Shown here one piece after another: positions 14,075 through 29,520 of a stretch of 64,000 bases of DNA. The notes below the pieces were generated by a model that searched no databases, had not been told where the DNA came from, and was given only the letters and a program-made list of their open reading frames with translations. Position 1 is the stretch's first letter, and each line of letters begins with the position of its first letter. Source of the stretch: Ignavibacteria bacterium (GTDB lineage: Bacteria; Bacteroidota; Ignavibacteria; Ignavibacteriales; Ignavibacteriaceae); NCBI GenBank assembly GCA_017302895.1, contig JAFLBV010000001.1:310001-374000 (forward strand). Direction: 5' to 3'. A program made the translations under genes and the position numbers.

Positions 14075-15778
14075 ATGAATAGAAAAACCATTTTTATTTT
14101 CTTCGCAGGACTTTTGTTTTCATCCTGTTTCTTTTCCTCTACCAACAAGGCTGACGATAATGTCAAACTTATTCCGGTGGTTACAGATGACAGGGGAGAC
14201 TTCGCATCGGATGTCTTTATCAGAGTAAATCAGGTCGGATTCAGAAGGCTTGATGTAAAAACTGCCGTTGTACTTTCAAAAAAAGACATGGGTGGCATTA
14301 AGTTCTACATAAAAGATGTGAAGTCCGGAAAGGATGTCTTCGAGAGCCGGATTCAACCAAGCATCGCGGGGTGGGGTGGGTTCAACTTCTGTCATGTGAT
14401 AGATTTTACCGGTTTTGGATCGGAAGGCACTTTCGTCATTGATGTAGAAGGAAGCCGTTCCTCCAATTTCAAAATTGGAGAGGGAATATATAATACAATA
14501 GTTGATTCTCTTCTGTTGTTTTTTAGAGTTCAAAGATGCGGACCGACAGGACCTTATCTCCATAAGGTATGTCATCTTTACGATTCCCCAAATGTTGTCG
14601 GCGACGACCGGGCAGGAAAGACAGATGTGACAGGAGGATGGCATGATGCAGGCGATTTTACAAAATTTCTGAACACAACTGCATTTTCAACCTACATGCT
14701 CCTTTTTGCTTACGAATTCAATTCCAAGAAAATGGAATTTGATAAAAACAAGGACGGGGCGCCCGATGTACTCGAAGAGGCAAGAGTCGGGCTTGATCTC
14801 TTACTCAGAATGAATTATAAACCTAATAACCTGATTATCCAGGTACAGGACAAAAGAGATCAGACAGTCGGGTGGCGAATGCCTGAGAATGATACTCTCA
14901 AATTTGACAGACCTGCTTTTGCCGGAATGGGTAAAAACCTCATTGGTATCTATACAGCAGCACTCGCAATGGGAAGCAGGATCTGGAAGACCCGTTTTCA
15001 GGATGCTGCTTTCTCTGATAAACTGATGAAGGCTGCAAACAATATTTTCGCATTAAGAAACAGTGCACCTGATGTTGATACAAATCCGATAGGGCTGTAT
15101 CAGGACAGCAAGTATGAGGGAAAACTTGCCTTGGGAGCTATCGAAATGTATATCACAACAGGTAATAACGCATACCTTGAGGAGGCTAAAAACCTCGCTA
15201 AAAAAGCAGATTCAGACTACTGGTGGAGCTGGGGGAATATTAACTCCCTGGCGCAGTACAGAGTGGCAAAATACTCGACAGATATGAAACAGTATATCGA
15301 GAACAATCTTTCAGCGTTTAATGAGACCAGGAAAAAAACTCCATTTGGAGAAGGTACAACTTTTTCATGGGGGACCACTCATACGCTTCTCGGCATAGCG
15401 ATGCAATCCATACTTTTCAGGGATCTGACAAAATCTTCACTATACGATTCCGTTGCAAGCTATCAAAGGGATTATGTTCTGGGCAAAAATCCATGGGGTG
15501 TATCCTTTATTTACAACATCGGTAGCAGATCCACCAGAAATTTTCATTCACAGGTCGGCTATTTTAATAATGGTTATCTCCCCGGTGCGGTAGCTGCAGG
15601 ACCTGTTCCGGCGGAAATTTTGAAGGGTTATAATATACAACGGACGAATTCGACTTACGACAAATTCAATTCGCCGGAAGTAAAATATTATGACGACAGA
15701 CAGGATTATATTACAAACGAACCAACAATTGTGACGAACGCTACAGCAGTTTTCGTTTTTTCTCATTTTTATAAATAA
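14075..15778 (+). CDS. Glycoside hydrolase family 9 lipoprotein (endoglucanase-like)
   Basis: 567 residues. The N-terminus has a lipobox-like LFSSC near residue 18, so it is probably membrane anchored. An N-terminal Ig-like CelD_N domain follows (VNQVGFRRLDVKTAVV), then the (alpha/alpha)6 GH9 domain from about residue 150. Catalytic candidates are Asp191 and Asp194 in GGWHDAGDF and Glu549 in YITNEPTIVTNA; the RSTRNFHSQVG segment corresponds to the conserved His/Arg region. GH9 enzymes cleave beta-1,4-glucans or remove terminal glucose by inversion. The gene is 18 bp after the hydroxylase gene and is the last one before the sigma-54-type promoter region. Confidence 0.88.
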   Translation: MNRKTIFIFFAGLLFSSCFFSSTNKADDNVKLIPVVTDDRGDFASDVFIRVNQVGFRRLDVKTAVVLSKKDMGGIKFYIKDVKSGKDVFESRIQPSIAGWGGFNFCHVIDFTGFGSEGTFVIDVEGSRSSNFKIGEGIYNTIVDSLLLFFRVQRCGPTGPYLHKVCHLYDSPNVVGDDRAGKTDVTGGWHDAGDFTKFLNTTAFSTYMLLFAYEFNSKKMEFDKNKDGAPDVLEEARVGLDLLLRMNYKPNNLIIQVQDKRDQTVGWRMPENDTLKFDRPAFAGMGKNLIGIYTAALAMGSRIWKTRFQDAAFSDKLMKAANNIFALRNSAPDVDTNPIGLYQDSKYEGKLALGAIEMYITTGNNAYLEEAKNLAKKADSDYWWSWGNINSLAQYRVAKYSTDMKQYIENNLSAFNETRKKTPFGEGTTFSWGTTHTLLGIAMQSILFRDLTKSSLYDSVASYQRDYVLGKNPWGVSFIYNIGSRSTRNFHSQVGYFNNGYLPGAVAAGPVPAEILKGYNIQRTNSTYDKFNSPEVKYYDDRQDYITNEPTIVTNATAVFVFSHFYK

Positions 15779-15781
15779 TTG

Positions 15782-15822
15782 TCTCATAATGATACACTAT
15801 GAAAAAGTGTCTCATAATGAGA
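15782..15822 (+). promoter_or_regulatory. Two copies of a TCTCA-N3-TGAGA operator (candidate enhancer site)
   Basis: TCTCATAATGAGA at 15810-15822 is a palindrome around a 3-bp centre; TCTCATAATGATA at 15782-15794 is a half-degenerate copy 28 bp upstream. They lie 80-110 bp before the -24 element of the sigma-54 promoter, the usual distance for an NtrC-type activator. The same palindrome recurs at 20149-20161. Confidence 0.6.
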
Positions 15823-15893
15823 ATTAATCGACTAAAAGTTTACAAAAATGTTTTGAAAATGCGTTATTTTCGCCGTTTTCGAACATGTATCGG

Positions 15894-15910
15894 TTGGCAT
15901 GATTATTGCT
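15894..15910 (+). promoter_or_regulatory. Sigma-54 (-24/-12) promoter of the exopolysaccharide operon
   Basis: TTGGCATGATTATTGCT matches the consensus TGGCAY-R-N4-TTGCW; GG at 15896-15897 and GC at 15908-15909 are separated by exactly 10 nt. A start of transcription around 15921 would give a 5' leader of about 20 nt before ATG 15943. Confidence 0.75.
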
Positions 15911-15942
15911 AATTATACACGACAACAAAAAGCAAAGAAGAT

Positions 15943-17241
15943 ATGGCAAACGGAAAAATAAATCTTATAAACACCGGCATCTCAATAGTTGATGAGTCCT
16001 GGGGTGGTTTTTACCGTGGTGGAACTTATGTTCTCATAGGTCCCCGCAAATCAGGAAGAACTACTCTCGGTCTTCAGTACGCCATGGCAGGTATCGAGCA
16101 AAAAGAGGTGTGTCTCTATTTCACGAGCATGCGTCCGAAGGATTTGATGATCCTTGCTGCTTCAGTTGATTTTGATCTCCAAACTCATATGGATAACGGT
16201 GAACTTATAGTTGTAAAGGTGACACCACCTCTCGATGTTTACGAGTCGGGGAATCCAGACAACTATCTTGTCGAGTATCTGAACGATATCGTCAATGTCG
16301 TGGAGCAATATCAACCGGCACGGCTCGTCTTCGATGAGTTGACTTATTTTGTTGGATTTGAAAACATTACCCTGCTTCAGCAGGCGTTTCTCCGTACTAT
16401 TGAAAGTATAGAAGATAAAAATGTAACGAGTTTATATATACTCGGTGAACCAGCCACACCATTCGCTCAAAATATTGTGGATAATATTGTTCAGTACACC
16501 ACTGCAATTATTTATCTTCAAAAAGGTGAAGGGAGCAGGGGACAGGGCGGAAAAGCCACTATTACCCCAAACATTGGGCACACTGAAGGTCAGTTTACAA
16601 CACCGTTCTCGTTTGAACCCTACAAAGGAGTCGTTTTTGAATCGACAACCGGCACCAGATCAGAGATGTTAAACCCTTCACAGGGTCAGGGATTTCAACA
16701 GTCCGTAATTCCTACTGCACAGGCATTTCCGGTAGCTCCTCACGGTAATACTGCAAATGCATCGGCGCCGGCTCAGGTAACGGCTAATATTCCTCCCAAA
16801 TATCGCCCGATTATTGAAGTGGAAGTGGTTCAGGCTCCCATGACCCATACTAATCAGTACAGCAAGGAAGAATTTAATCTGATTTTAAATAATCAGGTAG
16901 CACTCTACAAAAGTACCGGACAGCCCTTTACTCTGATCGCACTTAAACTCGATCCACAGGCAGAGGCTGCCGGAATAGTTTCGATGAACCAGTTTGGAAA
17001 TGCTGTCAGGTTATCCTTGACATTAAAAGAGAAATTGTGTATTGATGGATATACAATACTTGTCCTTTTAAGTAAGGCTGACGAAAGGGCACTTAGTGTG
17101 TTAGTCGCAAAATTAAGAGCAAATCTGCAGTCGAATGACCCGAATTTTATCCAGCGTGCCTTTGGTTTGATCTACTCGTGCTCGTATGTATCAAATGCAT
17201 CTACTGAGAATGCAGATGCAATTTTAAGAGAAGTTTTATAG
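15943..17241 (+). CDS. KaiC-like RecA-fold ATPase with degenerate GGDEF-like tail
   Basis: 432 residues, no signal peptide, cytoplasmic. Residues 1-240 resemble single-domain KaiC/RadA-like ATPases (GISIVDESWGGFYRGGTYVLIG). The Walker A segment is GPRKSGRTT at 33-41, so the invariant Lys is Arg39, although a Lys occurs earlier in the loop at 36. A Walker B-like LVFDEL follows near residue 130. After a Gln/Pro/Ala-rich linker (about 245-300) the last 120 residues look like a GGDEF domain that lost its signature (EEFNLILNNQVALYKSTGQPF, IALKLD). It heads the operon behind the sigma-54 promoter, 8 bp before the TPR/barrel gene. A regulatory role in polysaccharide synthesis, perhaps comparable to BcsQ-type ATPases or c-di-GMP sensing, is inference. 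Confidence 0.65.
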   Translation: MANGKINLINTGISIVDESWGGFYRGGTYVLIGPRKSGRTTLGLQYAMAGIEQKEVCLYFTSMRPKDLMILAASVDFDLQTHMDNGELIVVKVTPPLDVYESGNPDNYLVEYLNDIVNVVEQYQPARLVFDELTYFVGFENITLLQQAFLRTIESIEDKNVTSLYILGEPATPFAQNIVDNIVQYTTAIIYLQKGEGSRGQGGKATITPNIGHTEGQFTTPFSFEPYKGVVFESTTGTRSEMLNPSQGQGFQQSVIPTAQAFPVAPHGNTANASAPAQVTANIPPKYRPIIEVEVVQAPMTHTNQYSKEEFNLILNNQVALYKSTGQPFTLIALKLDPQAEAAGIVSMNQFGNAVRLSLTLKEKLCIDGYTILVLLSKADERALSVLVAKLRANLQSNDPNFIQRAFGLIYSCSYVSNASTENADAILREVL

Positions 17242-17249
17242 GCTTTTGC

Positions 17250-20144
17250 ATGATAAATCCCCGTATCCTGATTTTTGCAGCACTGTTTTTTCTTGCTTTT
17301 GTCTCATTGGCACATGCTCAGGGAAATCCTGAGAAGTATAAAAACGATGCCATAACCATGATGAATGGAGGCAAGTATGGGGAAGCAATCGATTTATTGA
17401 ATAAATATGTGGGTGCATTTCCCTCAAAACCTGACGGATACAATCTGAGAGGGAAATGTTATGAAAAGCGTAACCAGCTTGTAAATGCTCAAAATGACTA
17501 CAGAATTGCTGCTAAACTCGCACCCGGTAACAACGAATATCAAAATGATCTCGCCAGGGTAAACCAGAAGCTGAACAGTGATCTTAACGCTCTAATCAAG
17601 GGATACCAGCGTGAAATAGCCATCAATCCAAAGAACCCAAAAAACTATCTTGAGATCGCAAAGTGTTATAAACTGATGTTTAACTGGGTTCAGAGTGAAG
17701 AGTGGTACGACAAGTATCTCGAACTGGAAGAGCCCTCCTCTGATGAAGTTATCAGATACACCGAGGTCTTGAGCTATCTTAAAAAATACGCAAAAGCCGA
17801 GCCCATCCTCGCAAGATTCGTAAAAAAATTCCCGAACGACCACAGACTGTGGAGTCGTTACGGCTACATTCTTTACTGGCTGGGAAAGAGCGAAGAAGCA
17901 AAAGTTGCTTTCGAGACCGCATTAAAACTGAGGCCCTACTTTAAAGAGGCACAGGACGGACTTGATCAGGTGCTCGGTAAATATTTTACAAATCTTTACA
18001 AAGACACAACCGGAACCTGGGAGCAGAAAAATCAGAAGCCACCTCCACCTCCTCCGGAGTTTGCAATTGATAAATATTACAGGATTCTTAGAAACAATCC
18101 AAAAGACGATAAAACCCGTTTCCTTCTTATTGATGAACTTATTGTTTATAAAAGATGGGAAGAGGCTTGGCAGCAACTCATTATTCTTCAGGAAAAGTAT
18201 AAAGAAGACAAAAAATGGATGGCTTTGTATGAGAAGGTGAAAGCCGTAAGAGTTGAAAGCTATACAAAACGGATTTTAGAGCTTGAAAAACTGCTTCAGA
18301 AGAATCCAAACGACATCAAGGCTCTCACCGAGATGGTTGGATTGCTAAGTAATCTTGAGAGGAATGAGGAAGCTTTCAACCTGTTAAAAGCTTACTTTGA
18401 AGCAAATCCTGATTCTCCAGACTGTAAATTGAGGAAGATATATGCAAGAATTGCCGTTGATTATCAAGATAATTACACCGCAATAGATCAGCTTGACTTC
18501 TGTATCGCAAAAGATCCAACAGATCTTGAATTGAAATTACAAAGAGGAATCGTATCTGTCTGGCTCGGAAAAGATGAAGACCTGGCATATCAGTACTTGA
18601 ATGAAGTACTTAAAGCGAAACCGAAAGAAGTTACAGCACTTGTCGGACTGGCATCTCTCGAGATGAAAAAAAATAATTTTGACAAATCTGCCGAATATAT
18701 CGAGATGATCAAAGCCATCGAGCCTACACACCCCGAGCTTGAGACACTTCTTTCAAATCTGGAGACCTCGAAAGCAAGAGCTGCCGAAGAAGCACTTTTT
18801 GAGAGTCTCGAAAAGGGAAGAGAGATGATTCGGGCGGGTGATTGTGCCGGTGCCCTTGCAGTATATGATGACTTTCTTTCGAAACATGAAGGCAACAGGA
18901 CAATCCTGAAGGAATATGCTGACATCAATTCCTGTTTGAAGAATTATGACAGGGCAATTCAAATTTATGATTCTCTTCTGACAGGTGAATACGATTACCT
19001 TATCGATCTCGAGAGAGCGAAAGTATTTTTCTTCAAAGGTGACTATAATAAATCGATCACCGAGTTCGAAAGGCTTGTGAAAGAGGATAATGCAGATTTT
19101 GCAGTTAAACTTTTCCTTGGTGACGCCTACGCGCAAACTCAAGAGTATGGGAGAGCGAGAGATATTTACGATTCGCTTCTGGTCGGAAATACTGACACAA
19201 CCCAAATAGCTCTGATTAATCAGAGACTTGGCTGGTTGCCGGTTACAGGACTCGGTGCATTGCTTGGTTCGTTCCCACAGTACATTCTGTTAAATCCGTT
19301 CATCTCATACTTCGGTGACAATACTGATTTTAGCTATTTAAATTACGGCATTGCCTCAGATATGGGAATTACTTCCTTCTTATCTCTTGGTTTGCAGGGA
19401 AGTCTGGGGCGACTTTCGAGTCCCTACACTAAAGTGGAGTTGAATACCTGGAAAGGGTCTCTGTTCATTCGACCTTTTGAACCTTTTCTGATCGGACTTT
19501 CTTATGGCGAACAGTCATTTTTGTCACCAAAGAAAAAGTATCCTTTGTACGAGGCATTTATTCGTGCCAATGTAGAGAAAGAGTATCACGCTCAGATAAC
19601 TTACATCCAACAGGAAGCTGCCACCATGCTTTATTCGGCAGCACTGGTTTATCCTTTTGGATCGTTAAAAGACAGACTTAGAGTGGAAATGATAAAGGGT
19701 GAGGGATGGTATAACCTGCCCTCCAAATATCGGGTATCAGGTGCTTATACATATTTGATGATATCAGATGGCAACAGGGGAGCCAATACCGAATTGAGAA
19801 TCGGCAGATACTTCTATCCGGAGTTGCTGGCGGGTTACGAATTCTATTCGACGATATACGCCAGAAAGTCAATATTCTATTATTCCCCGCAGAGCTTCCT
19901 GTCGCACAGTTTGTTTGCTGACTGGAATTTCTACAAGGCTGATCAGCTTGATCTTTCTGCGGGCGGAAGATTTGGTTACATTCCTGAAAGTTCATACTGG
20001 CTAAGGGAATTCTACTTCCAGGGATCTTATAACCTTCTTTCCAATCTCAGGATAAACGGGAGAGCCCAGATCGGCAGTACCTCCAGAGAAACAACCGGAT
20101 ACAGCTCGAGATCCTTTAGTGCCTCAATTTTCTGGATGCTTTAG
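17250..20144 (+). CDS. TPR-rich outer-membrane beta-barrel protein, candidate polysaccharide exporter
   Basis: 964 residues. Signal peptide with AHAQ cleavage near residue 24. Residues 28-640 are built from many TPR-like helical pairs (YGEAIDLLNKYVGAFP, AEPILARFVKKFPND, YNKSITEFERLVKED), interrupted by a PPPPPPE linker near 265. The last 300 residues switch to alternating amphipathic strands rich in Tyr, Gly and aromatic residues and end in ASIFWML, as expected for an outer-membrane barrel. TPR-plus-barrel is the plan of PgaA, BcsC and PelB/AlgK-AlgE, which guide polymers across the periplasm and outer membrane. A membrane GT2 synthase gene follows 125 bp downstream. Polymer identity is unknown. 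Confidence 0.78.
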   Translation: MINPRILIFAALFFLAFVSLAHAQGNPEKYKNDAITMMNGGKYGEAIDLLNKYVGAFPSKPDGYNLRGKCYEKRNQLVNAQNDYRIAAKLAPGNNEYQNDLARVNQKLNSDLNALIKGYQREIAINPKNPKNYLEIAKCYKLMFNWVQSEEWYDKYLELEEPSSDEVIRYTEVLSYLKKYAKAEPILARFVKKFPNDHRLWSRYGYILYWLGKSEEAKVAFETALKLRPYFKEAQDGLDQVLGKYFTNLYKDTTGTWEQKNQKPPPPPPEFAIDKYYRILRNNPKDDKTRFLLIDELIVYKRWEEAWQQLIILQEKYKEDKKWMALYEKVKAVRVESYTKRILELEKLLQKNPNDIKALTEMVGLLSNLERNEEAFNLLKAYFEANPDSPDCKLRKIYARIAVDYQDNYTAIDQLDFCIAKDPTDLELKLQRGIVSVWLGKDEDLAYQYLNEVLKAKPKEVTALVGLASLEMKKNNFDKSAEYIEMIKAIEPTHPELETLLSNLETSKARAAEEALFESLEKGREMIRAGDCAGALAVYDDFLSKHEGNRTILKEYADINSCLKNYDRAIQIYDSLLTGEYDYLIDLERAKVFFFKGDYNKSITEFERLVKEDNADFAVKLFLGDAYAQTQEYGRARDIYDSLLVGNTDTTQIALINQRLGWLPVTGLGALLGSFPQYILLNPFISYFGDNTDFSYLNYGIASDMGITSFLSLGLQGSLGRLSSPYTKVELNTWKGSLFIRPFEPFLIGLSYGEQSFLSPKKKYPLYEAFIRANVEKEYHAQITYIQQEAATMLYSAALVYPFGSLKDRLRVEMIKGEGWYNLPSKYRVSGAYTYLMISDGNRGANTELRIGRYFYPELLAGYEFYSTIYARKSIFYYSPQSFLSHSLFADWNFYKADQLDLSAGGRFGYIPESSYWLREFYFQGSYNLLSNLRINGRAQIGSTSRETTGYSSRSFSASIFWML

Positions 20145-20148
20145 TCGT

Positions 20149-20161
20149 CTCAAAATGAGAT
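20149..20161 (+). promoter_or_regulatory. Third TCTCA-N3-TGAGA palindrome, upstream of the GT2 synthase
   Basis: TCTCAAAATGAGA has the same arms as the site at 15810-15822 and the same 3-bp centre. Its centre is 71 bp before the GG of a sigma-54-like element at 20224-20240, against 80 bp at the first promoter. It begins 5 bp after the stop of the exporter gene. Confidence 0.55.
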
Positions 20162-20223
20162 ATTCGATGAAAATGAAAAATGAAAAAATTGATTATTTGC
20201 ACTGTAAATGCAACTTTGTAGTT

Positions 20224-20240
20224 TGGTATGGAATTTGATG
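20224..20240 (+). promoter_or_regulatory. Possible sigma-54-like promoter of the GT2 gene (imperfect)
   Basis: TTGGTATGGAATTTGAT keeps GG at 20226-20227 and the exact 10-nt spacing, but the -12 dinucleotide is GA instead of GC, which normally weakens such promoters strongly. ATG 20270 lies about 30 nt downstream. Its support comes mainly from the accompanying palindrome. Confidence 0.35.
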
Positions 20241-20269
20241 AATAACTGTGGAAAAGCATAAAGGAACCA

Positions 20270-21667
20270 ATGGCTCAAAATAAGATAAGATCTACCCGGA
20301 TCACTGTTAAAAACACTGAAGCGACTGAAGTTGCCGGAGAGAATCGTCTAAGACAAATTCTTAGAAGGATGATCTCATCCGGAGTATCTTCGCTTGCATT
20401 GATTCTCGTGATCGTCTTTACGATGCCAATGACTGTTTTGTCGTATTCTGCTCTCTTTGAGTATTCGACAATGATTTCCTTGCTTCTATTTCTCTTGATT
20501 CTCCTCATCAGATATTTTGGATTGTTGGGGATGGCTTATTTGTGGCTGAATAACTACACCTTTTCGAAGAGACCCGATTTTCAACCGTTCGTATCGGTAA
20601 TAGTGCCTGTATACAATGAAGGATTATTACTTAAAGATGCGATTATGTCGCTTCTTGAACTTGAATACTCAAATTATGAAATTATCATTGTCAACGACGG
20701 TTCATCCGACAATACTTACGATGTTGCGAAGACACTTGTCGGGTTCCAGCAAGGTTTATACGGTAAGGTAAAGGTTTCACTGATTAGCAAACCTAATGGT
20801 GGAAAAGCGAGAGCTTTGAATGCAGGAATCAGCTATTCGAAATCCGAGATTGTACTCTGTATGGACGGTGACAGTCAGCTTTCACCCGAAACGATCAGAA
20901 ATGCGGCCAGGCACTTTATCGATCCTAGAATCGGTGCGGTTGCCGGTAATGTTAAAGTATTGAACAGAAAAAGATTTTACGCCGACCTTCAGGCTCTCGA
21001 GTACATCGAAGGTCTAAACATGGCGCGGGCAGCACAGAGTTTTCTTAAGCTGGTAAACATTATACCGGGACCCATCGGTTTGTTCAGAAAAAAGGCAATT
21101 GAAGAGGTCGGTTACTATTCAAGCGACACATTTGCTGAAGACGCAGATCTGACCCTGAAGATATTATCCAAGGGATGGAAGGTTTATTATGAACCAACAG
21201 CAATCGCATGGACAGAGGCTCCGGTCAAGCTGCAACAGCTTCTGAAACAAAGATATCGCTGGACGAGGGGAATTCTCCAGGCGATCAGAAAACATAAAAA
21301 TTTGCTTTACAATCCCACGATTAACTTTGGTGATACCTTCATTCTCTGGACCATGTTCTATGAAGCGCTTATCTGGCCCACGATGAATATAGTTGCCAAC
21401 TTTTTCTTCATCGTGGTATCGATTTTTTACGGTTACACCAGTCTGATTTTTTTCTGGTGGGTATTTTTGGCTTTACTTGATACAGTGACGGCACTATATT
21501 GTGTAGCTGTGGAAGATGAAGAATTACGACTTGTACCTTATTCTTTAGTGTACAGAATGTTTTTCGTATTCGCAATTGATATTTGTAAGATGATGTCGAC
21601 CATTGAAGAGTTTCTCGGTTTGGATATGAACTGGGGAAAACTGGAACGCATCGGAACCGGTAAATAG
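20270..21667 (+). CDS. Processive family-2 glycosyltransferase (polysaccharide synthase)
   Basis: 465 residues, start ATG 20270 with AAGGAA before it. Two hydrophobic segments (about 35-60 and 65-95) precede a cytoplasmic GT2 domain (105-340) and are followed by two or more TM segments (about 360-430). Processive-synthase motifs are complete: IVNDGSSDNT, CMDGDSQLS (DxD), TFAEDADLT (catalytic base) and QRYRW (QxxRW). This set is shared with PgaC, hyaluronan synthase and BcsA; no PilZ domain is present. It should polymerise UDP- or GDP-activated sugars while pushing the chain across the inner membrane. The next gene is 18 bp downstream. Confidence 0.88.
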   Translation: MAQNKIRSTRITVKNTEATEVAGENRLRQILRRMISSGVSSLALILVIVFTMPMTVLSYSALFEYSTMISLLLFLLILLIRYFGLLGMAYLWLNNYTFSKRPDFQPFVSVIVPVYNEGLLLKDAIMSLLELEYSNYEIIIVNDGSSDNTYDVAKTLVGFQQGLYGKVKVSLISKPNGGKARALNAGISYSKSEIVLCMDGDSQLSPETIRNAARHFIDPRIGAVAGNVKVLNRKRFYADLQALEYIEGLNMARAAQSFLKLVNIIPGPIGLFRKKAIEEVGYYSSDTFAEDADLTLKILSKGWKVYYEPTAIAWTEAPVKLQQLLKQRYRWTRGILQAIRKHKNLLYNPTINFGDTFILWTMFYEALIWPTMNIVANFFFIVVSIFYGYTSLIFFWWVFLALLDTVTALYCVAVEDEELRLVPYSLVYRMFFVFAIDICKMMSTIEEFLGLDMNWGKLERIGTGK

Positions 21668-21685: not shown

Positions 21686-22162
21686 ATGGAATTAATACCT
21701 ATTCTCGCAACAATTATTCTGGTGGCAACCATCAGTACTTTCTTCCTCTCGATCGGAGCTTATATACTCTTCAAGATCAGGGAGGCTCAGGGAGTCAGGG
21801 CAAAAGCAGTGCCTCCGGCAACAATTCAGGCTGAACTTGTAACTCCTGAACTGGCTTCTGAACGGACCTCCGCCACCATGTCGACTCGTGAAACACAGAG
21901 AAGAACCGGACAAACCTTCGAGACAACTCATGCGCCTGAATACAGAGCAACGAGTGCTCCAAGCAGAGTTACCGGTAATTTTGCCACAGAGAATGTTCCG
22001 GCTGCTCAGCAGTATGCTCCTCCCAGAAGGGAAGCTCCTATTTCTGCAGTTACCACTAATGCAAAGAAATTTGTTAAAGTCACCTCTGAAACCGCACAGG
22101 AACAGCAGCAGCAACAGGCTCCACAACAGCAAAGACAAGGCGGGAACCTTAAGTGGCGTTAA
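21686..22162 (+). CDS. Small single-pass membrane protein with Q-rich disordered tail
   Basis: 158 residues. One N-terminal membrane segment (IPILATIILVATISTFFLSIGAYILF) is followed by a low-complexity, charged and Ala/Pro/Thr-rich tail ending in a run of Gln (EQQQQQAPQQQ). No domain was recognised. It lies between the GT2 synthase and the deacetylase-fold gene, and its last 10 bases overlap the next gene. By position it could be an accessory subunit of the synthase, like PgaD, but there is no sequence similarity to prove this. Confidence 0.7.
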   Translation: MELIPILATIILVATISTFFLSIGAYILFKIREAQGVRAKAVPPATIQAELVTPELASERTSATMSTRETQRRTGQTFETTHAPEYRATSAPSRVTGNFATENVPAAQQYAPPRREAPISAVTTNAKKFVKVTSETAQEQQQQQAPQQQRQGGNLKWR

Positions 22163-24045
22163 AAAAGAGAAATGCCTTTTTTACATCGCTCCTGATTTTA
22201 ATCGCAGGAGGGCTGATGCTTGTGACCTCCGTCCTGATTTACAATTACATTCTTCAGGGCGTCTTCGGGTCTTATGCATTTGCGTCTGATGGATTTTCCC
22301 TCGAGGCATTTTCCAAAATATTTGGTGCTGACCAGACCAAGGTTGCCATTCTTTATTCAAAGAAAACCGAGAATTTTCTCCCTAAAGGTTCCACTTGGAT
22401 CAAAGATAATGTGACTGCATGGGAGCGGTACACCCAGGGGAATAAATTCCCTGTTACCGTGATAACTGAAGACGATCTTGAAAAAGGCGTCCTCACTCCC
22501 GAAAATTTTCAGATTCTCATCATGCCCAGTATCAAGGCTCTTAGCGACAGGGAAATTCTTACAATTAAAGATTATCTTGACAAGGGCGGCAACATTATGG
22601 CGACCGGGGCAACCGGCACATTCTCTGCTGATGGCAAGTGGCGCGGATGGGAGTATTTTAAGGAAGTTTACGGAACACTTTTTACGAAAGAGACCGCAAA
22701 AATTCCGTCACCTCGCTTGCTGACTTTAAAAGGCGGCTCTCCAATCACGTTCGACATTCCCACCGGGTACCGGTTAAAGATTGCTACATGGGATAACATG
22801 GTTGCGACGAGAGTTTTGGATCCCAGAACTCAACAACTGAGTTTTTGGTATGACTTTAAAATTGACTCAGGTCTTGTTAGAGAAGAAGTTCTTAATACTT
22901 CGGGACTCTGCTATGGTACTTATGGCAAGGGGAGATTTGTGTGGTACGGATTTGATATTATTACCATTGTAGGACAAAGAGAAGAATACCTTGTTCTCGA
23001 CAAGCTGATAAGAAATTCTTTAAACTGGCTTGCAAAAAAACCGAGTGCTTATATTGTTGACTGGCCCGGAAATAAAAAAGCTGCTGCCGTAATTCTTGCC
23101 TCAATAGGTGAAGAACCGGGAAATATCAAAAATCTCCTTCCAATTCTTGCTCAGGAGGGGGTAAAGGCTACATTTCTTGTAGAGGGGGCGCTTGCCGGTA
23201 CGAACGCGGATCTCGTTAAGAGTCTTTCAGCTTATGGCGACATTTCGGGGGTCGTTGATATCGGATTTATGAATTCGGTAAATGATACCGTGAACAAGCT
23301 TAAAAAGCTCGAGGTTCAGGAAGCTGATTTTAATAACTCAATTAAGACATTCAAAACTGCCACGGGTGGTACACTAAAAGGGGTTAAGCCGCTTTACGGA
23401 TTGTTTGATGACAACTCTCTGATGGCCGCTGCTGCAAGTGGAATAAAGTATATAATTACCGATTCTTTGACCGACAGATCGGTTCCAAAATATGTCGTTA
23501 AAGGTGAGGAAGCAATCATAACGGTTACCAAGACTGTAAGGGACGACAAGGAAATTGTCGGAAAATACGGGCTTGTCGAGCACGATTATCAGCTCTACAC
23601 TTACCTGGAAGATGTTGACAGACTGATTTTTGAAGGTGGACTGTATGTTCTCAAGTTACATACCAATTATCAGTTGAAACCTGAATATGTCTCAGTTGTC
23701 AAAGATGTAATCAAGTATATGAAAGAGAAAGACATGTGGATAACAAGCATGCCGGTTTTATATACATGGTGGACAAACAATAACAGGGTTGAACTTAGAG
23801 TTGAAGCCAGAGGTACCAGCAGGATGGTAATTGCTCTATCGAATGTGGGAAATACAATATTGAAAGAGGTACTCGTTCCTGTTGATTTCACTCTAATGCC
23901 GAAAACCTATAAAATTTCAACCGAAATTATAAACACACCTCTGCCTGACACAGATGTGAACAGAGAACTTAGAAAATTGACACTAAAAATTAAGAATTTA
24001 AAACCGTCAGAATCCAGAATTTATTACATAGACTACAAAAATTAA
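22153..24045 (+). CDS. Membrane-anchored protein with degenerate polysaccharide-deacetylase fold
   Basis: 630 residues from a GTG at 22153 that overlaps the previous stop by 10 bp, pointing to translational coupling. One N-terminal membrane segment (10-33) anchors a periplasmic part. Residues 50-290 look like a glutamine-amidotransferase-like or ThuA-like domain (ILIMPSIKALSDREILTIKDYLDKGG, GRFVWYGFDI). Residues 300-520 have the order of a NodB/PgaB-type (beta/alpha) deacetylase: KKAAAVILASIGEEPGNIKN, KATFLVEGA, VKPLYG, GIKYIITDS. However, the Asp-Asp and His-x3-His metal motifs are absent. A C-terminal beta domain follows. A catalytically dead chaperone or polymer-binding role in place of PgaB/PelA is inferred. 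Confidence 0.65.
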   Translation: MALKKRNAFFTSLLILIAGGLMLVTSVLIYNYILQGVFGSYAFASDGFSLEAFSKIFGADQTKVAILYSKKTENFLPKGSTWIKDNVTAWERYTQGNKFPVTVITEDDLEKGVLTPENFQILIMPSIKALSDREILTIKDYLDKGGNIMATGATGTFSADGKWRGWEYFKEVYGTLFTKETAKIPSPRLLTLKGGSPITFDIPTGYRLKIATWDNMVATRVLDPRTQQLSFWYDFKIDSGLVREEVLNTSGLCYGTYGKGRFVWYGFDIITIVGQREEYLVLDKLIRNSLNWLAKKPSAYIVDWPGNKKAAAVILASIGEEPGNIKNLLPILAQEGVKATFLVEGALAGTNADLVKSLSAYGDISGVVDIGFMNSVNDTVNKLKKLEVQEADFNNSIKTFKTATGGTLKGVKPLYGLFDDNSLMAAAASGIKYIITDSLTDRSVPKYVVKGEEAIITVTKTVRDDKEIVGKYGLVEHDYQLYTYLEDVDRLIFEGGLYVLKLHTNYQLKPEYVSVVKDVIKYMKEKDMWITSMPVLYTWWTNNNRVELRVEARGTSRMVIALSNVGNTILKEVLVPVDFTLMPKTYKISTEIINTPLPDTDVNRELRKLTLKIKNLKPSESRIYYIDYKN

Positions 24046-25364: not shown

Positions 25365-25373
25365 AAGGGTGTG

Positions 25374-28300
25374 ATGATCGACGCCTCTTCTCTGAAACAA
25401 CTTTTTGACAGCTTCGCAGGAAGTGCAGTCTATCCGTTTGTGATAATGGATTTGAAAGGGAAGTTGCTCTCCTTCAATGAGAAAGCAGAAACTCTCTTCG
25501 CCATCAAAGAGGGGAATGATTCGTTTGCTGATTTGTTTCTGATCTCGGAGGGGCTTAAACTCAAGAGTTTGCTTATTCCTGAGACTAAAACCGATTTTTC
25601 TGATACTGTGACCCTCTATTTAAGGAATGGGAAAGAGATAACTGTAAGTTACGCTGTACAATCGCCTGAAGTGGCCGGTGAGAAGTATCTTTTTTTCCAG
25701 TTCAGGGAATCATCACAAAGAGGTGTCAACCACTTTAATCTGAATGTAACCAGAAAAGAGATGAAGGATCTTGGAATTCAGGATGAACTTTCAACATTTC
25801 TGGGTGAGATAGAGTCCTCATATCCCTTTACTTACCTTGCAAAAAACAAACTTCAAACGAAGGCAAACCAGTTCTCTGAGATGATCTGGTTGAAAGATTC
25901 GGAAGGGAAGTATGTCCTTGTAAATGACAAGTTCTCAAACCATCTTAACCTGAAACCGGGGCAGATGGAGGGCAGGGCAGAAAAAAACTTCATCCCTAAC
26001 TTTATCAACGATTTTTACACAGCTCTCGAAAAATACCTGAAAGAGAGTCTTTCCATCGCGATCCTGACTTCCGATAAAGTCAAAGGGATTGCCGTGGATA
26101 CACCTCACGAAATTATCGAAATCCCGCTTCTCGATCTTGATGATAATCTTGTTGCCATTGTTGGTGTTGCAAGACCGTCCGATGAAAAAAAGCTCCTTGG
26201 GGGAAAGGATTCAGAGAATAATCTTATATTTACGGACGACATTAATTTTAATCTTGAAACCATCCTAAAGTTAAAAAACAAGATGTATGAATTTATAATC
26301 AGCAAAAATCCTGATGCAATCTTTATTTATGATCTGGAATCCTTCAAGTTTCTTGATGTAAACGATGCCGCCTTGAGCATATACGGCTATTCAAGGCAGG
26401 AATTTTTGCAAATGGATCTGACTGACCTTTATCTTCCCGAGGAAATTCAAACAATTGCTGAATCAGCAAAAAATGAGGAAGGCAGATTCGTCGGTCCCTT
26501 CAACCATCGCAAGAAGGATGGTTCCCTTATTCAAGTGGAAATATGCAAAATATCCTTTACTTATGAAGGTGCGGAAGCCCACTTCAACATTGTCAGAGAC
26601 ATAACAAAAATTCTTGAAATCGAAGAGCAGTTGCAGATGATGCGGACAGTTTTCGAATATTCACAGGACATTTTAATAGTAACTGACAATACAGGTTTTA
26701 TAAATTATATTAATCCGGCCGTAGAAAAACATCTTGGTTTTAGGAGAACCGATCTTCTCAATAACAGTATTATCAGTCTCGCCTCCGAGAGTTCGCGTGC
26801 TGATTTTCTCAAGAAAAGCGAAACGCCCTATAACTTTAGTGCCACAATAAAAAACAGTTCCAAAGCTGATGTTGCAGTTGAGGTAACCTCGGTTGCATTC
26901 GCGGGGATTGACGGCGAAGTTTCTCAGGTGGCATATATTGGCAGAATCGCAGATGCGGTTTCGGAACCAAAAGAAGTTGTTGTCGAAAAGGAAGTCGAAA
27001 AAATTGTTTATGTCGACAAACCGGTCGAAAAAATTGTTTATGTCGAAAAACAGACACAAGGCAACCACGAGATTAAAGCCGGTGGTATTGATCCGGGTCA
27101 GCTCTCATTTATCTTCCATGAAATTCTGACTCCGATAAATGTGATTGTCGGGTTTATCTCAGAATTGAAGGATACACTCGAGACTCCTTCCGAGGAGCAG
27201 GAAGAAGCAATCGGATATATAGACGAGAACAGAAAAAAACTCCTCTATACCATGGATTCCATATCGGAATATGCACAAATCGAGCAGCATTTTGGTGATA
27301 TAACAAAAACACAGTTCAACCTTGATGAACTTGTGCAGAAAGTATTTAAAGAGATGCATGATTCCCAGAGTCCGTGGAAAAAAGAAATTGTGCATGACAG
27401 GATTTCGATGGGGGTTCAGATAAATTCAGATCAGGAAAAAGTTCTGAATATAGTCTGCCTGATTCTTAAAATAATTTCTCATGTAACTGATGAGCGCGAA
27501 ATAATAATCAGCGCCTACCAGCTCGATGATGCAAATTTCATTGTGACCTTTAGAGATCACCACCTGAAAATTCAGCAAAAGCTCCTTTACATCATCCAAA
27601 ATCTCTTTTCGGAACAGGATGTCTCGAAGTTGAGGGCATTTGGAGTTTCCAGATTTACTATCTTTTCCGCGCAACGACTGTTTACTCTCTTGAACGGCAG
27701 ATTTGAAATTGTTCAAAAATCGGGTTTACCGTTTGAGATTGGATTGATTCTTCCAATTAATGCGGAATTTGTTTCGGAAACGGAAGCCGTGGAGGAGCAG
27801 AAGGAAAATATTTTCAGACCGGCGATCACCGCTGAAAAAGTTAATTCTCCCCGGGCCTCAGCCGAATATGCCGACACTTCCGCTCGCAGCAATCCAATCG
27901 AAAATGTAAGCGGTTCTCAGTATGATTATCTGATGCCCAAACAGGAACCGCCTGCGAAATCCGTCGAAAAGGAGAAAAGCGAGTATATCGATTTTGATTT
28001 TGACAGCGAACTCGATTTCTTAAGCAGACGAAAAAAGAGAGAAGCCGACAGGAGAGAAAGCGAGAGAAGTGAAACAAGGAACTTCCGCCGGTCTTTCGAG
28101 GAGCCGCCGTTGCAAAGGGAGGAATTGAGGGAGCCGGCAAGACGATCCGACACTTCGTTTGATTTCGATTCGGGTTTCTCCCGTTCGGATTATAGTGAAA
28201 AGAAGCCGGCTAAACCGGTGCAAACCTCATATCCTGACACTTCCTCCCGAGAGGTTACGCCACAGAAGCCTCCGCTAAGAGAAGAACCGCCCTCTGTACC

Positions 28301-28775
28301 AAAAGAGCCGGTAAGGACTTATTCGCCACCACAAGCCCCTGAGCCACCAGAAAGCCGGTCAGCTTCTGTTGCCAAGGTCACTGAGAACAGGGAGCCATCC
28401 TCGATCGATCTCCGCAATATGAGTTGTCTTTATATCGAGGATCAACTGGATTCACAGATACTCTTTAAAGTCCAGATGAAAGAACTGAAATCGATCAAAT
28501 TTTCTCAAAGTTTTGAAGATGCGATTCCTTTGCTTGAAAACGAGAAATTTGATTTTATTGTGCTTGACATCAATCTTCAAGGTGAGTACAATGGACTGGA
28601 TGCGCTAAAAGTTATCAGGACTATGGAAGGTCTTGAGTTGATTCCAATAATCGCCGTAACTGCATATGTTCTCCCGGGTGACAAAGAGAAATTTATTGCA
28701 ACCGGGTTTACCGATTTTGTATCAAAACCTATCTTCCGAAACAAACTTGTGGAAGTACTTAGTAAAATATTCTGA
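25374..28775 (+). CDS. Soluble PAS-repeat hybrid histidine kinase with degenerate ATPase domain and receiver
   Basis: 1133 residues from ATG 25374 (an adjacent GTG at 25371 is also possible). No membrane segments. Four PAS-like units can be seen at about 15-120, 155-265, 300-420 and 430-540. A Val/Glu/Lys linker with two copies of EKIVYV follows, then a dimerisation domain with H-box FHEILTPINVI near 580. The next 200 residues occupy the ATPase position but lack the N box and the DxGxG motif, so kinase activity is doubtful. A long charged, Pro/Ser-rich region precedes a C-terminal receiver (1010-1133) with acidic IED, phospho-acceptor Asp in VLDINL and SKP Lys. Probably a signalling hub for the polysaccharide operon. 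Confidence 0.8.
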   Translation: MIDASSLKQLFDSFAGSAVYPFVIMDLKGKLLSFNEKAETLFAIKEGNDSFADLFLISEGLKLKSLLIPETKTDFSDTVTLYLRNGKEITVSYAVQSPEVAGEKYLFFQFRESSQRGVNHFNLNVTRKEMKDLGIQDELSTFLGEIESSYPFTYLAKNKLQTKANQFSEMIWLKDSEGKYVLVNDKFSNHLNLKPGQMEGRAEKNFIPNFINDFYTALEKYLKESLSIAILTSDKVKGIAVDTPHEIIEIPLLDLDDNLVAIVGVARPSDEKKLLGGKDSENNLIFTDDINFNLETILKLKNKMYEFIISKNPDAIFIYDLESFKFLDVNDAALSIYGYSRQEFLQMDLTDLYLPEEIQTIAESAKNEEGRFVGPFNHRKKDGSLIQVEICKISFTYEGAEAHFNIVRDITKILEIEEQLQMMRTVFEYSQDILIVTDNTGFINYINPAVEKHLGFRRTDLLNNSIISLASESSRADFLKKSETPYNFSATIKNSSKADVAVEVTSVAFAGIDGEVSQVAYIGRIADAVSEPKEVVVEKEVEKIVYVDKPVEKIVYVEKQTQGNHEIKAGGIDPGQLSFIFHEILTPINVIVGFISELKDTLETPSEEQEEAIGYIDENRKKLLYTMDSISEYAQIEQHFGDITKTQFNLDELVQKVFKEMHDSQSPWKKEIVHDRISMGVQINSDQEKVLNIVCLILKIISHVTDEREIIISAYQLDDANFIVTFRDHHLKIQQKLLYIIQNLFSEQDVSKLRAFGVSRFTIFSAQRLFTLLNGRFEIVQKSGLPFEIGLILPINAEFVSETEAVEEQKENIFRPAITAEKVNSPRASAEYADTSARSNPIENVSGSQYDYLMPKQEPPAKSVEKEKSEYIDFDFDSELDFLSRRKKREADRRESERSETRNFRRSFEEPPLQREELREPARRSDTSFDFDSGFSRSDYSEKKPAKPVQTSYPDTSSREVTPQKPPLREEPPSVPKEPVRTYSPPQAPEPPESRSASVAKVTENREPSSIDLRNMSCLYIEDQLDSQILFKVQMKELKSIKFSQSFEDAIPLLENEKFDFIVLDINLQGEYNGLDALKVIRTMEGLELIPIIAVTAYVLPGDKEKFIATGFTDFVSKPIFRNKLVEVLSKIF
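26994..27046 (+). repeat. In-frame 30-bp tandem duplication within the PAS kinase linker
   Basis: The 23-base string beginning GTCGAAAAAATTG occurs at 26994-27016 and again at 27024-27046, a period of 30 bp (10 codons), encoding VEKIVYVD/E-KP units. Probably an elongated linker or short coiled stretch. Confidence 0.7.
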
Positions 28776-28779
28776 TTAA

Positions 28780-29520
28780 ATGATAAATAATAAGAAGATA
28801 GTTGTAGTTTTACCTGCCTATAATGCAGCTAAAACTCTTGAACAAACTTACAAAGAAATACCATTTGATATAGTGGACGATGTGGTGCTTGTGGATGATG
28901 CGAGCAAAGACGATACATCCGAGGTCGGGAAAGCCCTCGGGATAAAGCACATTATAAAACACGATAAAAATAAAGGGTACGGGGGAAATCAGAAATCGTG
29001 TTACAAAAAGGCGCTCGAACTAAACGCTGATATTGTTATCATGCTGCATCCCGATTATCAGTACACTCCTAAACTTATTCCTTCAATTTCATGGATCATA
29101 GCCAACGGGCTCTATCCTGTTGTACTCGCCTCAAGGATATTGGGGAAGGGTGCATTGAAAGGGGGAATGCCAATATATAAATACATTGCAAACAGAGTTC
29201 TCACACTTGTACAAAACTGGCTGGTTGGGCAGAAATTGTCAGAATACCATACAGGATACAGGGCGTTTTCGGCGGAAGTGTTGCGGGATCTGAATCTTGA
29301 AGCCAATTCTGATGATTTCGTTTTCGATAATCAGATGCTCTCCCAGATTATCTTTAAAGGATATGAGATCGGAGAAGTAACCTGCCCAACAAAATATTTT
29401 GAAGAAGCTTCCTCTATAAATTTCAAACGAAGTTCCATCTACGGAATCGGGGTTCTTGTTACCTCCGTAAAACACCGTCTCCAGAAAATGGGGCTTGCCA
29501 GATTTGATATCTACAATTAG
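28780..29520 (+). CDS. Family-2 glycosyltransferase (Dpm1-like)
   Basis: 246 residues, soluble. N-terminal VVLPAYNAAKTLEQT and VDDVVLVDDASKDDT give the nucleotide-sugar-binding fold; HPDYQYTPKLI occupies the DxD position. There are no C-terminal membrane segments, as in short Dpm1/DPMS enzymes that transfer a sugar to polyprenyl phosphate. The gene begins 4 bp after the hybrid kinase, so it is likely the last gene of the exopolysaccharide operon. It ends 1 bp from the convergent PMT-type glycosyltransferase, which would use just such a polyprenyl-linked sugar; the functional link is inference. Confidence 0.82.
   Translation: MINNKKIVVVLPAYNAAKTLEQTYKEIPFDIVDDVVLVDDASKDDTSEVGKALGIKHIIKHDKNKGYGGNQKSCYKKALELNADIVIMLHPDYQYTPKLIPSISWIIANGLYPVVLASRILGKGALKGGMPIYKYIANRVLTLVQNWLVGQKLSEYHTGYRAFSAEVLRDLNLEANSDDFVFDNQMLSQIIFKGYEIGEVTCPTKYFEEASSINFKRSSIYGIGVLVTSVKHRLQKMGLARFDIYN

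Follow-up and report, generated by a model that had tools for sequence, protein, structure and literature searches.

In Vibrio fischeri the syp polysaccharide locus is reported to be controlled by the sigma-54 response regulator SypG, for which an upstream site, TTCTCANNNTGMDWN, is given (PMC10162802), and SypA and SypE are described as a STAS domain protein (PMC4517449) and a kinase-receiver-phosphatase protein (PMC3610818), respectively. In a floc system of the Aquincola tertiaricarbonis type, RpoN1, probably together with PrsK-PrsR, is reported to control a PEP-CTERM surface protein that acts with exopolysaccharide in aggregation (PMC9850573), and a sigma-54 promoter of Flavobacterium psychrophilum that was examined by mutagenesis is described as contributing to the operon remFG-sprCDBF for an adhesin of the type IX secretion system, T9SS (PMC9723704). 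Francke et al. proposed sigma-54 as a controller of the bacterial exterior (PMC3162934), and a term search of a regulon survey from 2025 gave no mention of Ignavibacter (PMC12316311). The polysaccharide locus that we describe here is from an Ignavibacteria bacterium (GenBank assembly GCA_017302895.1, contig JAFLBV010000001.1) and lies at C1:325-339 kb of the 3.98 Mb genome, within a stretch of 64,000 nucleotides (forward strand, positions 310,001 to 374,000) that we call the window and whose numbering we use for the features. It has two units, the first with genes for a KaiC-like and a TPR protein and the second from a glycosyltransferase gene onward, and each is preceded by a sigma-54-type promoter with palindromic enhancer-like sites. 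We think that these sites mark a regulon in which one activator of the NtrC family is likely to turn on the genes of a predicted slime polysaccharide together with genes for predicted adhesins, and that the regulon itself, whichever protein drives it, is very probably real.

The kind of regulation is already known, and ours is a variant of it, since the SypG, RpoN1/PrsK-PrsR and remFG-sprCDBF systems precede it; what is new is that, in Ignavibacteria, a single palindrome stands before polysaccharide genes and genes for predicted T9SS-tailed adhesins alike. With syp there are in common a sigma-54 response regulator and a polysaccharide locus, the sequence TCTCA-N3-TG in the reported SypG site and in the site here, and STAS and receiver-phosphatase genes in the operon of a candidate activator, L011. 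The SypG site TTCTCANNNTG is similar to our palindrome (PMC10162802), and the likeness that we describe is one of site and partner genes. Here, on the other hand, the phylum and the polysaccharide genes are others, T9SS-tailed proteins are among the targets, the Pfam domains of the SypE-like protein are receiver and SpoIIE only, a serine kinase being absent, and the gene for the candidate activator is found at C1:1503 kb, away from the locus. The floc system, as reported, shares a surface protein gene that depends on RpoN and has an enhancer predicted for it, and an exopolysaccharide partner, but has PEP-CTERM tails where we find T9SS tails, and here the same site also heads polysaccharide units. 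The remFG-sprCDBF operon shares the sigma-54 promoter and the T9SS-secreted adhesin, but, as far as that report describes it, no palindrome in common with a polysaccharide locus (PMC9723704).

The sites and promoter elements of the two units are the following, with distances measured from the centre of the site to the GG of the -24 element.

15780..15796, + strand, distal enhancer-like site: TGTCTCATAATGATACA, 13 of 14 positions equal to TGTCTCANNNTGAGACA, 108 bp from the GG
15808..15824, + strand, proximal enhancer-like site: TGTCTCATAATGAGAAT, core TCTCATAATGAGA at 15810-15822, 80 bp from the GG
15894..15910, + strand, sigma-54-type -24/-12 element of the first unit: TTGGCATGATTATTGCT, one of 22 matches in the genome to TTGGYAYN5TTGCW
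20146..20162, + strand, second-unit enhancer-like site: CGTCTCAAAATGAGATA, with the core TCTCAAAATGAGA at 20148-20160, 71 bp from the GG
20223..20239, + strand, weak sigma-54-type element of the second unit: TTGGTATGGAATTTGAT, score 8.9, with GA instead of GC at -12

An earlier, sequence-only reading had placed the first palindrome and the first promoter element exactly as in the list, and its distances of 80 and 71 bp agree with ours. What it took for a second copy at 15782-15794, however, reads TCTCATAATGATA and is one base off the palindrome, and the second palindrome and the weaker element, which both exist, begin at 20148 and 20223 and not, as it had them, at 20149-20161 and 20224-20240. 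The GG and GC set 10 bp apart that characterise a -24/-12 element are perfect at the first unit and weak at the second. The distal site has an equal position in G001 and G003, two genomes of the same genus, with a tandem spacing of 28 bp, and the first element has counterparts in relatives. The element of the second unit is also present in G003, and stronger counterparts occur in relatives, e.g. G027, G034 and G009.

The sequence-only reading would need rpoN and enhancer-binding proteins in the genome, and both were found: one rpoN gene, and 13 matches to enhancer-binding proteins of which nine, labelled L009-L017, are strong. The strong promoter pattern TTGGYAYN5TTGCW, with its 22 matches, has none in the control, and 5 of the 22 have a site (at least 11 of the 14 positions of TGTCTCANNNTGAGACA) within 160 bp upstream, which is the case for 0.47% of dinucleotide shuffles. 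This pairing is beyond chance and disagrees with palindromes scattered at random, one of the cases that the earlier reading had named as a refutation. Among the seven exact palindromes in the genome (five intergenic, two within open reading frames, ORFs), the probability that at least three would stand at strong promoters is about 2e-8 if independence is assumed, and two of the three are a tandem pair. A search with up to 2 mismatches gave 101 matches against 73 in the control and is too loose alone; we followed sites only near -24/-12 elements, which were scored with a matrix of consensus weights, not a trained one. Sigma-70-type promoters are in no excess (9 against 9.9 in shuffles).

The five strong promoters that carry a site are that of the first polysaccharide unit and those of four genes for large proteins, and with two weaker cases the targets away from the locus are these:

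C1:56502, 1024-aa protein with DUF4082, fn3 and a T9SS tail; two perfect palindromes, divergent
C1:1740600, large protein with pAdhesive_15 (PF20597), DUF11 and a T9SS tail; site and strong promoter
C2:819930, large protein with pAdhesive_15 (PF20597), DUF11 and a T9SS tail; site and strong promoter
C2:951832, large protein with pAdhesive_15 (PF20597), DUF11 and a T9SS tail; site and strong promoter
C1:303922, fourth pAdhesive_15 protein, weaker case; site 201 bp from the -24
C1:1739684, 176-aa protein, weaker case; site about 257 bp away

The large T9SS-tailed targets are thus five, four of them with PF20597, an ice-binding-like adhesive domain, and DUF11, and the fifth with DUF4082 and fn3. 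As site and promoter also precede these large proteins, the regulon is probably one for the matrix, with a polysaccharide similar to poly-N-acetylglucosamine (PGA) and adhesins as its products. The site is not merely a mark of every T9SS gene: of two strong sigma-54-type promoters that lack it and were traced to whole genes, one heads the gene at L330:122-2470, for a T9SS-tailed protein whose multihaem cytochrome domains are MtrC/MtrF-like, and the other a gene for an FG-GAP protein whose match to the T9SS tail is weak. The earlier idea of two units of one machine is supported by all this, and a wider regulon of secreted surface proteins, with the activator gene away from the locus, is added to it.

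To follow the arrangement in relatives, 59 genomes were searched and 61 upstream regions were scored, 43 of KaiC-like genes and 18 of glycosyltransferase (GT2) genes, all of them related sequences and not independent trials. A KaiC-like match was found in 57 of the 59 genomes, the one in G020 being only a distant family member; the upstream scan covered 43 of the 57, and G002 and a copy in G022 were viewed apart. Two of the three named contigs that bear KaiC-like relatives are from metagenome-assembled genomes of Ignavibacteriaceae and the third is from one of Chlorobiota. The gene order GH9-KaiC-TPR-GT2-small-deacetylase-Ig-kinase recurs among 20 loci compared, some of which are cut by the end of the contig or of the fetched stretch, and GT2 was not seen in 3 of them. 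A site of at least 11 of 14 is present in 35 of the 61 regions (24/43 KaiC-like, 11/18 GT2) against 0.37% of shuffles, and a -24/-12 element scoring at least 9 in 33 (18 KaiC-like, 15 GT2) against 1.0%. Conservation, which the sequence-only reading had proposed to look for, is therefore found in these relatives without being universal: G001 lacks the second pair, and G049 both.

The spacing is also regular. Among the 53 regions with an element of at least 5 there are 71 sites of at least 10, and their distances to the GG are 58-62 bp (27 sites), 86-91 (22), 78-81 (8), 69-73 (5) and 100-108 (5), with 4 others. At 22 of the 53 promoters two sites stand in tandem, 28-31 bp apart, and in most of these pairs they lie near 59 and 88 bp from the -24. 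When near relatives are dropped, the 17 distances beyond the two main classes favour whole turns counted from 59 (p about 0.01, the remaining kinship being uncorrected). Among 17 fetched loci with a near-exact 17-mer of the site, 11 have a -24/-12 element of at least 9 beside it, and the loci head the KaiC-like gene, GT2, pAdhesive_15/T9SS proteins (G014, G029) or a small protein of 161 aa. In G017 a gene for a pAdhesive_15/T9SS protein of 1547 aa has the element ATGGTACGGATTTTGCT, score 13.7, with site centres 59 and 88 bp upstream of the GG, the arrangement that the polysaccharide locus shows most often; three more sites are found behind this gene, with no good element there.

Several observations weigh against the regulon as we have drawn it. 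The bare motif is not enriched: in the 3.98 Mb the exact palindrome was counted 7 times and its reversed control 5 times. The second promoter is weak (8.9), and in the scan of the 61 regions another sequence upstream of the second unit scores 9.0 as a -24/-12 element. In the relatives 26 of the 61 regions are without a site of at least 11 and 28 without an element of at least 9, and in G001, in spite of the shared genus, the second site-promoter pair is missing and the gap is just 28 bp. Searched without regard to promoters, the near-exact 17-mer has 30 places in 13 of the 59 genomes against 19 in the control, so that the motif drifts outside the genus. We infer that the polysaccharide is PGA-like from the synthase, the deacetylase and the TPR export protein, but the PgaC model gives 199 bits against a cut-off of 422 and the PgaA model, TIGR03939, matches only partially within the TPR part and below its cut-off, and the name therefore stands for resemblance only.

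The regulon fits the older proposal of sigma-54 governing the bacterial exterior, as put forward by its authors (PMC3162934), and our literature search gave no paper that combines Ignavibacter with RpoN and none that combines KaiC, exopolysaccharide and Ignavibacteri. For Ignavibacteria it is a testable regulon defined from sequence, where one DNA site ties the matrix sugar to T9SS-tailed adhesins; it predicts genes for biofilm building and names candidate activators, and the site with a -24/-12 element can be used as a marker for further matrix genes.

The genes in and before the locus are, in order:

14075-15778, GH9 glycosidase gene with a possible part in trimming the polysaccharide, preceding the locus in this genome and in each of the 20 loci compared from relatives (one of these cut)
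15943..17241, + strand, KaiC-fold ATPase, first gene of the unit: Pfam PF06745, AlphaFold2 models and Foldseek
17250..20144, + strand, TPR protein, weakly PgaA-like (export porin): TIGR03939, E 1e-14, below cut-off
20270..21667, + strand, family 2 glycosyltransferase, PgaC/IcaA-like, with a QRYRW motif: TIGR03937, E 1e-58, below cut-off
21686..22162, + strand, small conserved protein, hydrophobic at its N-terminus and without a family match, a neighbour in relatives too
22153..24045, + strand, polysaccharide deacetylase-domain protein with an inferred PgaB-like role: PF01522
24063..25364, + strand, immunoglobulin (Ig)/fibronectin-type protein
25371..28775, + strand, hybrid histidine kinase (PAS, HisKA, receiver)
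28780..29520, + strand, family 2 glycosyltransferase, last of the run, adjoining the kinase only in the same-genus G001 and G003

Like PgaABCD and IcaADBC, the locus has a synthase of the PgaC/IcaA type, a deacetylase-domain protein and a TPR export-like protein. It differs by also having a KaiC-GGDEF-fold protein, an Ig protein and a hybrid kinase, and by PgaC and PgaA matches below the cut-offs; the deacetylase has PF01522 and no match to the PgaB model. Within the hybrid kinase, the receiver is better conserved (about 49-71%) than the kinase core (about 32-40%) in most of the relatives compared, as if it were docking to a fixed partner.

Activators bind as paired dimers at sites of this kind. 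In the mechanism that we propose, where sigma-54-type promoters with TGTCTCA-N3-TGAGACA-type sites head both polysaccharide units and several genes for T9SS-tailed proteins, dimers of the activator would sit on the sites (paired ones mostly about 59 and 88 bp upstream of the -24; 80/108 and 71 here, off by roughly whole helical turns), contact sigma-54 RNA polymerase and thereby start transcription. The predicted activator is L011, whose gene stands between that of a PAS histidine kinase and the STAS and receiver-phosphatase genes; by analogy with SypG-SypA-SypE of Vibrio, matrix production would be set by a kinase signal together with a partner switch. The full version of this is tentative and we hold it as one possibility: that in Ignavibacteriales a SypG-like sigma-54 activator with a STAS/phosphatase switch acts from tandem palindromes in helical phase to fire both polysaccharide synthesis and ice-binding-like T9SS adhesins, its half-site TCTCA-N3-TG being that of Vibrio SypG and the module being shared or re-evolved across phyla.

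L011 (C1:1503270) is a response regulator with receiver (PF00072), AAA+ (PF00158) and Fis-type helix-turn-helix (HTH; PF02954) domains, and its operon runs PAS kinase, activator, STAS protein (PF01740) and receiver/SpoIIE phosphatase (PF00072 and PF07228), an order that, judged by ORF sequence, is kept in all five relative loci viewed. Orthologs with at least 63% identity are present in 55 of the 59 genomes, one of them interrupted. A perfect dyad, TGTCTTATATTAAGACA, lies before the kinase gene of the operon, by 34 bp in our own genome (G000) and 32 bp in G001, and its half-site TGTCTTA is also found in the polysaccharide locus of G005. In G049 rpoN, L010, L013 and the locus are present, the L011 ortholog is absent, and site and -24/-12 element are absent at both units. 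Other results count against L011. In G049 clear orthologs of L009, L014 and L016 are absent too; G033 (99% complete) and G007 (82% complete) have no L011 ortholog, yet both keep degenerate sites and a -24/-12-like element; the dyad that would suggest autoregulation is found before the kinase in only 2 of 27 operons, with 24 evaluable ones lacking it and the kinase start in G010 not located; and in G028 the frame (L271:5606-6987) is split into two overlapping ORFs, by sequencing error or decay. Given a real regulon, we would put L011 at about even chances of being its activator. Directly behind the kinase-activator-STAS-phosphatase run, at L114:2520-8197, is a gene for a T9SS-tailed zinc carboxypeptidase (M14).

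The same regulon could instead have as its activator L010 (C2:25236), an orphan response regulator of the NtrC family that would be phosphorylated by the hybrid kinase of the locus, a reading that we find rather doubtful but that stays the main rival because of its linkage. In 15 genomes (G013, G015, G018, G021, G022, G023, G028, G030, G031, G032, G039, G041, G043, G049 and G054) the L010 ortholog is on one contig with the KaiC-like gene, at most 40 kb away, against no genome for L011 and L013; in G018 and G022 it stands with a HIT gene, convergent and directly beside the hybrid kinase. No kinase gene adjoins L010 itself, and a full ortholog is present in 56 of the 59 genomes, including G033 and G007, with a partial one in G008. 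Against this, in G049 the gene adjoins the locus and both promoters are without site and -24/-12, no site of at least 12 of 14 is found in the 14 kb around L010, and it was not found in G036 (92% complete) and G002 (82%), which both keep sites. Given a real regulon, L010 has in our view a small but tangible chance of being the activator, and the remaining ones share the rest. At L113:6796-8151 and in relatives, L010 is beside a HIT gene in several genomes, and its linkage to the locus is downstream and convergent or, in G049, upstream and divergent.

It is unlikely, in our judgement, that the palindromes are bound by another of the genome's own activators, L014 being the first to consider and L009, L013 and L015 coming after it. 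In favour of this, the four could be given no motif; against it, none of them has a site of at least 12 of 14 in the 14 kb that surround its gene. L014 occurs widely (of 17 loci picked as L014-like, 16 are orthologs), and it has an ortholog in G033, where a degenerate promoter is kept, and no clear one in G049, where the promoter is lost. In G005 and G027, however, the E-ranked lists hold no row of the kind expected of an L014 ortholog, even though the sites of G005 are among the best, and we left our estimate unchanged for this reason in spite of G033; L013 and L015 are still present in G049. Covariation of HTH and motif was tried as a discriminator and rejected, as the sites drift but the helices hardly vary in either L010 or L011, and similarity to LuxO in the PDB is nearly equal for L010, L011 and L014 and does not discriminate. 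The sigma-54-type promoters beside L012 and L017 have dyads of a different kind, TTTATCATTTTGATAAA and TGAAACATCATGTTTCA, the activator genes with these dyads of their own being at L115:8018 and L119:6353.

Very improbable is a reading of the palindromes as RNA stem-loops or terminators behind the GH9 and TPR genes and not as DNA sites. Both begin just past stop codons, and the two copies at 15780-15824 fold as one hairpin (z -4.0), but the palindrome of the second unit folds no better than shuffles (z 0.3), no terminator was called at the palindromes, the same sites elsewhere precede promoters of divergent or isolated genes, and the distances to the -24 cluster in narrow classes; with an ordinary second fold and no terminator called we rejected it. 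That chance palindromes stand next to chance -24/-12 look-alikes agrees with a bare motif count near its control (7 against 5) but is hardly credible beside the 54-57% observed in the 61 upstream regions against 0.4-1% in shuffles, even if these regions are not phylogenetically independent, and the 5 of 22 strong promoters with a site in the own genome against 0.47%.

The first gene of the locus deserves a comment of its own. Its product has a fold of the KaiC/FlaH type, and comparison of the whole model showed only the KaiC domain. Its C-terminal domain, unnamed by Pfam, was folded alone with AlphaFold2 (predicted local distance difference test, pLDDT, 92), and nearly all of the best 50 Foldseek rows listed for it were GGDEF/diguanylate cyclase structures, with template modelling (TM) scores to the model of 0.55-0.72. 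No GGDEF motif is present in the alignment of this domain. We thus regard the protein as a KaiC-fold ATPase with a predicted GGDEF-fold domain that lacks the GGDEF motif, and a link from it to matrix output by cyclic di-GMP or another nucleotide is possible. In the relatives examined the KaiC-GGDEF-fold gene is likewise the first of the locus.

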